In this document: piece by piece, positions 22,081 to 25,130 of the stretch
Position numbering within the stretch: position 1 is the first letter of the stretch
Layout of the letters: each line of letters opens with the position of its first letter
Assembly (NCBI GenBank): GCA_020444245.1
Contig: JAHLLI010000015.1
Span: 1-64,000 of the forward strand
Direction: 5' to 3'
Origin: Actinomycetales bacterium
GTDB lineage: Bacteria > Actinomycetota > Actinomycetes > Actinomycetales > Cellulomonadaceae
Length of the DNA: 64,000 nt
Program-made: the position numbers and the translations under genes
Notes under the pieces: model-generated
Databases searched by the model: none
What the model was told of the DNA's origin: nothing
What the model saw: only the letters and a program-made list of their open reading frames with translations

Positions 22081-22461
22081 TCAGGCGGCGAGCGCCATGA
22101 CTGCGACGCCGAGCGCCGCGGCGCTGACCGTGAGCACCAGCGACCCGGCCGCCGTGATCGTCGCACGACGGAGCTCGCCGGCCTGGAGCAGGCGGGCGGT
22201 CTCGACCATCGCGGTCGAGAACGTGGTGAACCCGCCGCAGAAGCCGGTCATCGCAGCCACCAGCCACGGACCGCCGGCGCCGTGGTACAGCTGTGCGCCG
22301 GCCAGCAGGCCGATGATCAGCGATCCCGATACGTTCACCACCGCGGTGCCGATCGGCAGGCCCTGGGCCACGCGGTCGCGGACCAGGCCGTCGACCACGA
22401 ACCGGCTCGCGGCGCCCACCCCGCCCAGCAGCGCGACCAGCAGGAGCGTCGGGCCGGTCAT
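22081..22461 (-). CDS. crcB: CrcB fluoride channel subunit 2
   Basis: 126 residues, four membrane helices. Family motifs are GGVGAASRF at the N-terminus, NVSGSLIIG in the middle and [11 protein letters not shown]. CrcB/Fluc proteins are dual-topology dimeric channels that expel fluoride. Starts at an ATG that overlaps the upstream crcB stop (ATGA), fitting an obligate heterodimer. Confidence 0.9.
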
Positions 22462-22907
22462 CGGCGCGGCTCCCGACGCAGCACCCGGCGCAGCGCGGCG
22501 CGCGGCCGAAGCCGAGCGCCCAGCAGCATCCCCGCGACGCAGGCGAGCAGCCCGAGGACGAGGCTCGCGCCGGCGTACCCCGCGGCGATCCCCAGCTCGC
22601 CGCCGGCCAGCAGCCGCTCGATCTCGAGCGCGAAGCTGGAGAACGTCGTGAACCCGCCCATCACCCCGGTGCCCAGGCCCAGCCGGACCAGGCGGGCGCG
22701 CGGCGTCTCCGCGCCGGCCCGCAGCAAGGCCTCGAGCAGCATGCCGAGCAGGAACGAGCCGACGACGTTCTCCGTCAGGGTGCCCAGCGGCCAGCCGCCC
22801 ACCTGACCGATGGCGCCGGTGAGCGTGGCCCTTGCCGTGGTGCCCAGGATGCCGCCGGCGCCCACGGCCAGGACCAGGCCGGGGTGCAGGTGCGGCCGGG
22901 TGCTCAC
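22458..22907 (-). CDS. crcB: CrcB fluoride channel subunit 1
   Basis: 149 residues, four membrane helices with [20 protein letters not shown] and [11 protein letters not shown]. The usual VN before the GSF motif reads EN here. A basic C-terminal tail ([18 protein letters not shown]) extends past the family core. GTG start, apparently leaderless with TAGGGT seven bases upstream, so there is no room for a fluoride riboswitch. Confidence 0.9.
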
Positions 22908-22945: not shown

Positions 22946-22974
22946 TTGCCTGACCCCTGGACTCCGGCTACCGT
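22946..22974 (+). promoter_or_regulatory. Promoter of the cysteine attenuator and cysK-cysE
   Basis: TTGCCT at 22946-22951 and TACCGT at 22969-22974 with a 17-base spacer, predicting a start near 22981. This gives a leader of about 220 bases before cysK, containing the leader peptide and hairpins. Confidence 0.55.
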
Positions 22975-23004
22975 CGAGCCCGACCAGACGAGAGGAGCAC
23001 GGCC

Positions 23005-23067
23005 GTGGCGTTCGCCCCGACCCTTCGGTGCTCCCTGGTGTGCGCCCGCTGCTGCAGCTGTCTGTAG
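23005..23067 (+). CDS. Cysteine-rich attenuator leader peptide
   Basis: A 20-codon ORF: GTG start with AGAGGAG seven to eight bases upstream, TAG stop at 23065. The last half reads [13 protein letters not shown], five Cys in 12 residues (codons at 23029, 23041, 23050, 23053 and 23059). It is followed one base later by strong alternative hairpins and then by cysK-cysE, the two enzymes of cysteine synthesis. Poly-Cys short ORFs acting as cysteine-responsive attenuators are known in mycobacteria. When Cys-tRNA is scarce the ribosome should stall here and alter leader folding so that the genes are read. Too short for routine gene finding. Confidence 0.75.
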
Positions 23068-23112
23068 AGCGCTGGCACCGGCCCGCGGCCCTGCGCCGCG
23101 GCGTCCAGCGCT
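23068..23112 (+). promoter_or_regulatory. Long leader hairpin of the cys attenuator
   Basis: AGCGCTGG at 23068-23075 pairs with CCAGCGCT at 23105-23112 (eight perfect base pairs), with inner pairing between the CCGCGG segments. The left arm begins one base after the leader peptide stop, so a ribosome finishing the peptide would cover it and a ribosome stalled at the Cys codons would not. Confidence 0.6.
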
Positions 23113-23125
23113 CGTGCCCCCGCCC

Positions 23126-23142
23126 CCGGGGGAAGTCCCCGG
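23126..23142 (+). terminator. Second hairpin of the cys attenuator
   Basis: CCGGGG-GAAGT-CCCCGG, six base pairs, directly after the long hairpin and overlapping a CCCCCGGGGG palindrome at 23123-23132. Candidate intrinsic terminator or sequestering stem, without a T-run as is usual in actinomycetes. Confidence 0.45.
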
Positions 23143-23198
23143 ACTCCCAGACCGTTACCCCCATGGCGCGCTTGCGCCCCGCACACCGAAGGACTCTC

Positions 23199-24131
23199 AT
23201 GGCTCGGATCTACGACGACGTCACCACGCTCATCGGCAACACCCCGCTGGTTCGGTTGAACCGGCTCCCCGACACCACGGCCACCGTGGTCGCCAAGCTC
23301 GAGTTCTACAACCCCGCCAACTCCGTCAAGGACCGGATCGGCGTCTCGATCATCGACGCCGCCGAGGCGTCCGGCCAGCTGCCGCCCGGCGGCACCGTGG
23401 TCGAGGCGACCAGCGGCAACACCGGCATCGCGCTGGCGATGGTCGGCGCGGCCCGCGGCTACCACGTCGTGCTCACCATGCCCGAGTCGATGTCCAAGGA
23501 GCGCCGCGCGCTGCTGCGCGCCTTCGGCGCAGAGCTGGTCCTCACGCCGGCCGGCGAGGGCATGAAGGGCGCCGTCGACCGGGCCGAGCAGCTCGCCGCC
23601 GAGCGCCCGGGCGCGATCCTCGCCCGGCAGTTCGCCAACGAGGCCAACCCGGCGATCCACCGCCGCACCACCGCCGAGGAGATCTGGGCGGACACCGACG
23701 GCGAGGTCGACATCGTGGTGGCCGGGATCGGCACCGGCGGCACGATCACCGGCGTCGGGCAGGTCCTCAAGGAGCGCAAGCCGGGCGTGCAGATCATCGG
23801 CGTGGAGCCGGCCGAGTCGCCGATCCTCAACGGTGGCGCCCCCGGACCGCACAAGATCCAGGGCATCGGGGCCAACTTCGTCCCGGAGATCCTGGACACG
23901 TCGGTCTACGACGAGATCATCGACGTCGACGCCGGCACGGCCGCCGAGGTCGCGCGCCGCACCGCGCGGGACGAGGGCCTGCTGGTCGGCTTCAGCTCCG
24001 GCGCCGCGATCGCCGCGGCCCAGCAGGTGGCCCAGCGACCGGAGAACGCCGGCAAGCTGATCGTCGTCATCGTGCCGTCGTTCGGCGAGCGCTACCTGTC
24101 CACCGTCCTCTACGCCGACCTGATGGACTGA
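23199..24131 (+). CDS. cysK: Cysteine synthase A (O-acetylserine sulfhydrylase)
   Basis: 310 residues. Makes L-cysteine from O-acetylserine and sulfide with pyridoxal phosphate. The PLP lysine is Lys44 in NSVKDRIG, the substrate loop TSGNTG at 71-76, the phosphate loop GTGGT near 175 and the C-terminal SSGAA. The start at 23199 has GAAGGA upstream. An in-frame ATG at 23163 would add 12 Arg-rich residues and is less likely. One base from cysE and preceded by the attenuator. Confidence 0.95.
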
Positions 24132-24132
24132 G

Positions 24133-24768
24133 ATGACTTCGATGAGACGGTTCCTCGGCGTGCTGCGCGAGGATCTCCAGGCGGCCCGGGACCGCGACCC
24201 GGCAGCCCGATCGATGCTTGAGGTCGCGCTCGGCTACCCGGGCGTGCACGCGATCTGGGGCTACCGGATCGCGCACCGGATGTGGCGCGAGCCCGGTCTG
24301 CGCCTGCCCGCGCGTCTGCTCTCGCAGCTCGTGCGGTCGGCGACCGGGATCGAGATCCACCCCGGGGCCCAGCTGGGACGCAGGCTCTTCATGGACCACG
24401 GCATGGGCATCGTGATCGGGGAGACCGCGATGGTCGGCGACGACGTCGTGATGTTCCACGGCGCGACGCTCGGCGGGGTCTCGATGAAGCACGGCAAGCG
24501 GCACCCGACGCTCGGCGACGGGGTCGTGATCGGCTCCGGGGCCCGGGTCCTGGGGCCGGTGTGGGTCGGGGACGGGGCCAAGATCGGGGCGAACGCGGTG
24601 GTCGTCAAGGACGTCCCGGCGGGCGCGACCGCCGTCGGCGTCCCCGCGGTGATCCGCCGGCACGAGCACACCGGCAACGGCTCGGCCGACACCTCACGGG
24701 TGGACGTCCGTTCGCCCGACCACATCCGCGACCCGGCCCTGGACGTCGACCCCGCGATCTGGATCTAG
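24133..24768 (+). CDS. cysE: Serine O-acetyltransferase
   Basis: 211 residues. Helical N-terminal region, then left-handed beta-helix hexapeptide repeats ([32 protein letters not shown]) with the catalytic His in MDHGMG and HGATLGG. Acetylates serine to O-acetylserine for CysK. The C-terminus ends in DPAIWI; a terminal Ile is the feature by which CysE binds CysK in the cysteine synthase complex. Its stop overlaps the convergent ATL stop at a shared CTAG. Confidence 0.95.
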
Positions 24769-25130
24769 GCGTCCTCGGGCCACCACAGCGCGCGCCGGAG
24801 CACGACGCGCGCCTCGTCGGGGTCCTCGGGCTCGGTCAGCGGGCAGCCCTCGGCGCGCAGCCGGGCGAGCGCGTCGCGGCGGTAGGGCCGCGGCGGCAGG
24901 CCCGACGCGTTGACGACCCGCCACCACGGCACGCCCGAGCCGGCCCTGGCCAGCACCGAGCCGACCTGGCGTGGCCCGCCCACGCCGAGCCGCTCGCGCA
25001 GCACCTCGGCGAGCGAGCCGTAGGTCGCGGCCCGGCCGGGCGGGATCTGCGCGACCAGGTCGAGGACCTCGCCGAGGTACTCGTCGGGCGTCAGAGCGAC
25101 CTCAGAGCCGCTGGACCAGGACGAGGGCAC
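24765..25130 (-). CDS. Alkyltransferase-like protein (ATL), MGMT family
   Basis: 121 residues of the O6-methylguanine-DNA methyltransferase C-terminal domain: [15 protein letters not shown] helix-turn-helix entry and a [10 protein letters not shown] segment where active enzymes have PCHRV. The active Cys is replaced by Trp, as in ATL proteins, which bind O6-alkylguanine and hand the lesion to nucleotide excision repair. GTG start overlaps the upstream phosphatase gene by 29 bases. Confidence 0.85.

Follow-up and report, generated by a model that had tools for sequence, protein, structure and literature searches.

A Cys-codon leader with a hairpin on its stop codon precedes cysK in an actinobacterial family and may act as a ribosome-gated attenuator

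The window analysed here, a stretch of 64,000 nucleotides from an Actinomycetales genome (contig JAHLLI010000015.1, positions 1 to 64,000), carries cysK and cysE in tandem behind a short Cys-rich leader ORF (Table 1). A sequence-only reading had noted a promoter with hexamers 17 nt apart, a ribosome site and a 20-codon ORF with five Cys among its last 12 residues, all of which are read directly in the DNA; Pfam matches back the identities that it gave to the two downstream genes. Its eight-base stem directly 3′ of the TAG is likewise there (AGCGCTGG at 23068–23075 with CCAGCGCT at 23105–23112), and becomes a 9-bp helix when the G of the stop codon is paired with C23113. The segment 23067–23116 has a folding energy of −34.1 kcal/mol (z −3.1 relative to its dinucleotide-shuffled versions), and the second GC hairpin of the same reading is present in the sequence at ~23120–23140. 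A sigma-70 consensus scan of the window returned no promoter, the promoter-like pair at 22946–22974 included. Hexamers of a similar kind (TTGCC or TTGCG with TASCGT or TACGGT) stand in a similar place, ~30 nt 5′ of the leader start, in 9 of the 13 leaders printed for the genus as judged by eye (three differ, one is cut off), and the Shine-Dalgarno GAGAGGAG is identical in loci L002 and L003. Divergent from the leader, on the minus strand, lie two adjacent CrcB-family genes (22081–22907), presumably of the fluoride channel type; an Rfam scan of the window gave no riboswitch. At the far end, a small minus-strand gene (24765–25130) shares four bases with the 3′ end of cysE, its product matching only the DNA-binding domain of O6-methylguanine methyltransferase.

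Table 1. Features of the cysK–cysE leader region (positions in the window).
Feature	Position	Strand	Basis or remark
Promoter-like −35 TTGCCT (22946–22951), 17 nt, −10 TACCGT (22969–22974)	22946–22974	+	Sequence
Leader-ORF Shine-Dalgarno GAGAGGAG	22990–22997	+	Sequence; 7 nt before GTG at 23005
Leader ORF, GTG start, 20 codons, stop TAG	23005–23067	+	Sequence and comparison
Cys codon TGT, two codons 5′ of stop	23059–23061	+	TGT in 169 of 169 motif-bearing family loci (194-locus set)
Conserved covarying hairpin on stop codon, inner part variable	23067–23113	+	Arms GAGCGCTGG (23067–23075) and CCAGCGCTC (23105–23113)
C-rich, G-poor untranslated stretch, 71 nt, 35 C and 20 G	23114–23184	+	Candidate Rho-binding region, putative function
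cysK Shine-Dalgarno GAAGGA	23188–23193	+	Sequence
cysK, cysteine synthase (PALP family)	23199–24131	+	Pfam PF00291
cysE, serine O-acetyltransferase	24133–24768	+	Pfam Hexapep, SATase_N

The leader recurs throughout the family. We gathered cysK upstream regions from 148 genomes of this family, which we take to be Cellulomonadaceae; the window's genus takes in Actinotalea, and the family includes Cellulomonas, Oerskovia, Isoptericola and others. A short ORF with two or more Cys among the final 8 codons, no more than 400 nt from cysK, is found in 143 of the 148 loci, against 4 on the reverse strand and ~5 in dinucleotide shuffles. Two of the five exceptions (L010 and L013) show such an ORF once 450 nt are read, two more (L128 and L188) have 183 and 252 nt of upstream sequence only, and the last is L008. 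Addition of 49 loci gave an extended set (194 distinct loci of 197 scored, each with at least 300 nt upstream), in which the motif TGY-NNN-TAG-RGC (R = A/G) precedes cysK in 169 of 194, with no occurrence on the reverse strand. The conservation in relatives that the sequence-only reading had proposed as its check is therefore found. A Shine-Dalgarno of at least 4 nt accompanies 141 of 145 leader starts, a generous count in that the start was chosen partly by its Shine-Dalgarno; together with the promoter-like hexamers ~30 nt upstream, this argues, as had been proposed, that the ORF is probably not leaderless. A plasmid search returned matches to cysK or part of cysK, none extending to the leader.

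The 25 loci without the motif comprise L008, 14 Cellulosimicrobium-like loci, L177 and nine others, several of these last from incomplete or lower-GC genomes. A two-Cys ORF is still found in 19 of the 25, although for a few of them this means little, as the reverse strand has one in 13 of 194. In L008, ~200 nt 5′ of cysK, the UAG has become a sense codon with the rest of the motif kept, and the leader frame continues a few codons into the stem. The Cellulosimicrobium-like loci (L129, L135, L140, L158, L161, L172, L175, L180, L181, L197, L202, L217, L244 and L391) retain a Cys-ended uORF, with UGA as its stop and no such stem, and their leaders remain C-rich in the 13 scored. Because Cys codons and a C-rich leader are kept there without the stem, the hairpin would not be essential in this group.

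Codon choice singles out one position. Among the 131 of 145 leaders that read as UAG-type, codon −2 (counted from the stop) is TGT in 130 and TGC in one, and UGU is invariant there in the motif-bearing loci of the larger set (Table 1). Neighbouring genes, by contrast, favour UGC: in long high-GC3 frames, picked mechanically, TGC:TGT is 196:32 for the window and 366:61 for named family loci. Further Cys codons stand at −4 in 101 and at −5 in 76 of the 131 leaders; the upstream Cys codons alternate between TGC and TGT, and, with codon −2 excluded, TGY occurs 324 times in frame compared with 68 and 25 times in the other two frames. Ahead of the last five codons, changes per site amount to 0.246, 0.253 and 0.205 at codon positions 1, 2 and 3 (305 ungapped, equal-length pairs of related leaders, which are not independent), and because the three positions vary equally the amino acids of this N-terminal part are judged to be unselected in the family. 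Over the last five codons changes are few (0.015, 0.085 and 0.086). This pattern suits a ribosome sensor and marks a frame whose importance lies in the ribosome's stopping point and not in the peptide.

Conservation continues past the stop codon as pairing. A perfect helix of at least 7 bp begins at the last stop-codon base or the next base in 125 of 145 leaders, with 7.6 expected from downstream shuffles and 13 seen in shifted windows. In an alignment of 53 of 56 representatives (made on sequence, with two UGA-type loci and L239 omitted), no variation is seen in TGTC-NN-TAGAGCG or in GCTC, and almost none in the C that precedes TGTC. Across the ten-pair stem 95.2% of cells are paired and 20 are double-changed, values that none of 500 shuffles reaches, and sliding the stem partner lowers pairing to 26–42%. 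Two of five covariation measures, the number of pairs with a double change and the number of further pair types, stay within the range of the shuffles, 269 of 500 equalling or passing the first and 252 the second. Double changes are confined to pairs six, seven and nine of the ten, and four pairs are constant. On the alignment, then, the stem covaries, within a few positions. A likeness of GGTAGAGCG to the tRNA D-arm was set aside, the base before UAG not being fixed.

A Cys-ended leader in front of cysteine genes, with a free N-terminal part, is most plausibly a device that senses Cys-tRNA through ribosome stalling, and we consider it very likely that the leader is a cysteine-responsive, ribosome-mediated sensor. 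Open frames are abundant in high-GC DNA, which would speak for a chance ORF; the counts against reverse strand and shuffles, the helix excess, the invariant UGU, the covariation and the in-frame excess of TGY make that explanation extremely improbable. A protein-binding site or DNA operator, of which the Cys codons would be a by-product through the nucleotide motif CTGTC..TAGAGCG, has in its favour that UGU, CTGTC, AGCG and CGCTC are invariant or nearly so, a conservation of nucleotides beyond what the code asks for. We nonetheless regard it as very unlikely, given that the upstream Cys codons alternate between synonyms and keep to the frame, that the stem varies in sequence while its pairing stays, and that Cys codons persist in the group that lacks the motif.

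For the output of this sensor we infer a transcription start, predicted near 22981, translation, stalling, a response to cysteine and Rho as the effector; which way the switch works is deduced solely from the genes that follow it. The ribosome would load onto the leader ORF through its Shine-Dalgarno. With Cys-tRNA plentiful it would reach the UAG and depart, so that the hairpin seated on the last UAG base refolds and the C-rich untranslated leader lies open to Rho, and transcription would end before cysK or early in it. With Cys-tRNA short, the ribosome would halt on the Cys codons. A ribosome covers ~15 nt beyond the first base of its P-site codon, and the spacing fits this model because, on that footprint, a halt with the invariant UGU in the A site would cover RNA to about GAGCG, the invariant foot of the stem; the hairpin would then be blocked and polymerase would continue into cysK–cysE. 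A stall at codon −4 or −5 would, under the same assumed footprint, leave the stem free. We give even chances to this model, a cysteine-responsive, ribosome-mediated attenuator of cysK–cysE with Rho-type termination gated at the last Cys codon.

The same sensor could instead have a translational output, the stalled ribosome preventing a fold that hides the cysK ribosome site, as reportedly happens at mycobacterial polycysteine uORFs. Translation attenuation is stated for the cysteine genes of M. smegmatis in the excerpts of PMC13236596, which cites Canestrari 2020. Folding, a weak test, does not point that way: mean openness of the cysK Shine-Dalgarno across 125 leaders is 0.477 without and 0.482 with a ribosome mask over the Cys codons (18 up, 14 down), and, in the same weak test, its pairing with the hairpin, the intervening region or the uORF does not exceed chance. 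We hold this output to be rather unlikely. Another reading makes the hairpin abutting the stop an intrinsic or pausing terminator that a ribosome on the last Cys codon blocks, with no need of an antiterminator. It draws on the stem's covariation, on the stem foot, which would be covered whether the ribosome stood at codon −2 or at the stop, and on the lower-GC relative L404 (genome G164), where the U-tract CTTTTTCTT follows the stem ~160 nt before cysK, an arrangement that fits plain (intrinsic) termination. Against it, TTTT occurs between leader stop and cysK in none of 145 leaders, the lower-GC members L389, L398 and L409 (55–60% GC) have no four-U run directly after the stem, and a terminator scan of the window found nothing; we see in it a minor possibility. 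What the sequence-only reading had called a classic end-product attenuation circuit is not supported in that form: apart from L404 there is no U-tract, neither hairpin arm nor the Cys codons have an alternative partner above chance at the 125 loci, where pairing of the 3′ arm to the downstream stretch falls below the chance level (mean rank 0.30), and folding gives no sign that a stalled ribosome would free the cysK ribosome site.

Termination by Rho, gated by a ribosome on the last Cys codon, is suggested by the base composition of the leader. The stretch from hairpin to Shine-Dalgarno is 51% C and 28% G, and C exceeds 1.3 G in all 125 stem-bearing leaders; in a fixed window from −120 to −14 before cysK, 122 of the 125 keep this excess of C. 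Among motif-less cysK leaders taken from other genera 15 of 40 show it, and 5 of the 21 with more than 65% GC. In the 63 of 125 loci compared with composition-matched shuffles, the hairpin-to-Shine-Dalgarno RNA is no more open than the shuffles, and the Cys codons, like the first 40 nt that follow the hairpin, are slightly more closed. Because openness does not exceed that of shuffles, base composition is all that speaks for Rho. Taken together, the three output tests favour ribosome-gated termination, Rho-type first and hairpin second, over hiding of the ribosome site. A frameshift fusion of leader and cysK was rejected: in the window the cysK reading frame does extend open beyond its start, but the three nearest leaders place their stop 131, 129 and 130 nt from cysK, which breaks the frame relation. 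Seven Oerskovia-like loci (L152, L157, L169, L176, L178, L184 and L201) have a short stem only. By eye, the Oerskovia-like Cys-codon stretch CCTGTTGTC could pair with CGACGACAGG ~25–50 nt after the stop, a possible alternative hairpin at the level of that genus.

A covariance model of the element delimits its distribution. In the window's own genome there is one strong match, the window leader itself (58.5 bits; the next scores 22 bits). Within the order, 61 of 297 drawn genomes match at E ≤ 0.01; of 50 matches inspected, 44 sit 0–450 nt before cysK, and the six without a nearby cysK (28.8–36.3 bits) are taken as chance. The element was found at named loci of Demequina, Georgenia and Oceanitalea, and the strict motif is absent within 450 nt of cysK in the fetched Arthrobacter, Agromyces, Brachybacterium and Intrasporangiaceae-type loci. 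At class level 6 of 394 drawn genomes match, four of them in the window's own order; in the two outside it (L318 and L321) the motif shows no stop preceded by a Cys codon. We also looked for further Cys leaders in the window's genome with two Cys-Cys-x-Cys-type patterns, the last codon of which also admits TGG, and found no excess (23 and 35 matches against 48 and 50 reversed). The 19 matches resolved as ended by a true stop are the window leader and others that overlap longer open frames; L368, the only doubtful one, falls within an ArsR-like gene.

More distant forms escape the model, among them the leader of Gordonia zhenghanii (L091). In a genus that we assign to Gordonia, cysK scores above threshold in 13 of 59 genomes; TGT-NNN-TAG precedes it at 7 of these 13 loci, five of them with an AGCGCC- or AGCGTC-kind stem. 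The Gordonia leaders (L452–L455, L458–L460, L091 and L087) lie ~120–215 nt before cysK; in them UGU stands two codons ahead of a UAG stop, and several go on into a stem of this type. They carry a single Cys near the stop, within a conserved peptide ALFAH[ST]..[LF]LTDHC that matches no Pfam or NCBIfam model. This peptide is under amino-acid selection, because changes at codon positions 1, 2 and 3 number 77, 86 and 207 (27 pairs from eight sequences, two of them identical); the 21 codons preceding it show no selection (321, 293 and 305). The Gordonia leader could thus encode a cysteine-dependent arrest peptide, and with its one Cys and selected peptide would allow sensing by codons and sensing by the nascent chain to be compared in naturally occurring leaders.

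Polycysteine leaderless short ORFs reportedly act as attenuators in mycobacteria (Canestrari et al., 2020). By analogy, the cysK leader would share with these uORFs a short Cys-ended ORF before cysteine genes and the ribosome as sensor; unlike them, it has a Shine-Dalgarno, a conserved stem seated on its stop, UGU as the invariant codon −2 and cysK–cysE as its target, and shows no sign, in the weak test that folding provides, of ribosome-site hiding. Conserved Cys-rich uORFs in mycobacteria are described in the excerpts of PMC4633059. Cys leaders in Actinobacteria are already known: the sections of PMC1262725 (Seliverstov 2005) available to us predict them for cys operons of Mycobacterium and Propionibacterium acnes and for cbs in Bifidobacterium longum. 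As presented there, these leaders share with ours runs of Cys codons near the stop and the lack of a terminator, and Rho-dependent termination is offered as a possibility; U-tract terminators are also said there to be few in Mycobacterium. Those sections report no conserved hairpin capable of termination, whereas the cysK leader has a conserved, covarying one. The uORFC-8-2 motif before cysS in Rhodobacterales combines a Cys uORF with an intrinsic terminator and likewise joins tandem Cys codons to RNA structure, but, from the extract of PMC8632094, its codons lie in the stem and its intrinsic terminator follows with a U run.

Features of trp-type attenuators, a U-tract terminator and antiterminator pairing, are not seen here, the U-tract of L404 excepted. 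In the tnaC leader, stalling on a uORF decides Rho-dependent termination. Of the features of such a Rho-dependent system, the cysK leaders show the C-rich, G-poor region after the uORF, far more often than motif-less leaders do, but not an unstructured region when compared with shuffles. In the toiL uORF of E. coli, stalling decides Rho-dependent termination by way of a ribosome site, as given in the excerpts of PMC12121999; tnaC and toiL differ from the cysK leader in signal, genes and RNA elements, and Rho is here a putative effector. Rfam gives no match above gathering score in the window; lax thresholds add a single one, on the opposite strand, to a viral microRNA family and far short of its gathering score. 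Among the matches listed from open-licence literature none describes a stop-codon stem with an invariant UGU, and a report elsewhere is possible. What appears new on comparison, then, is this stem with its invariant UGU, to which no Rfam family corresponds. Tentatively, it may belong to an undescribed class of cis-regulatory RNA, in which a ribosome on one invariant UGU, at a fixed distance from a UAG-borne stem, directly gates termination with no U-tract terminator, antiterminator or pairing of the ribosome-binding site, and of which the Gordonia leader would have the same core. One invariant codon at a fixed distance from the stem would make the coupling of ribosome position to termination directly testable in high-GC bacteria. 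Through the cysK leader, cysteine attenuation would reach beyond mycobacteria into a large group of actinobacteria, of soil and of industry, and gain a defined RNA anatomy.
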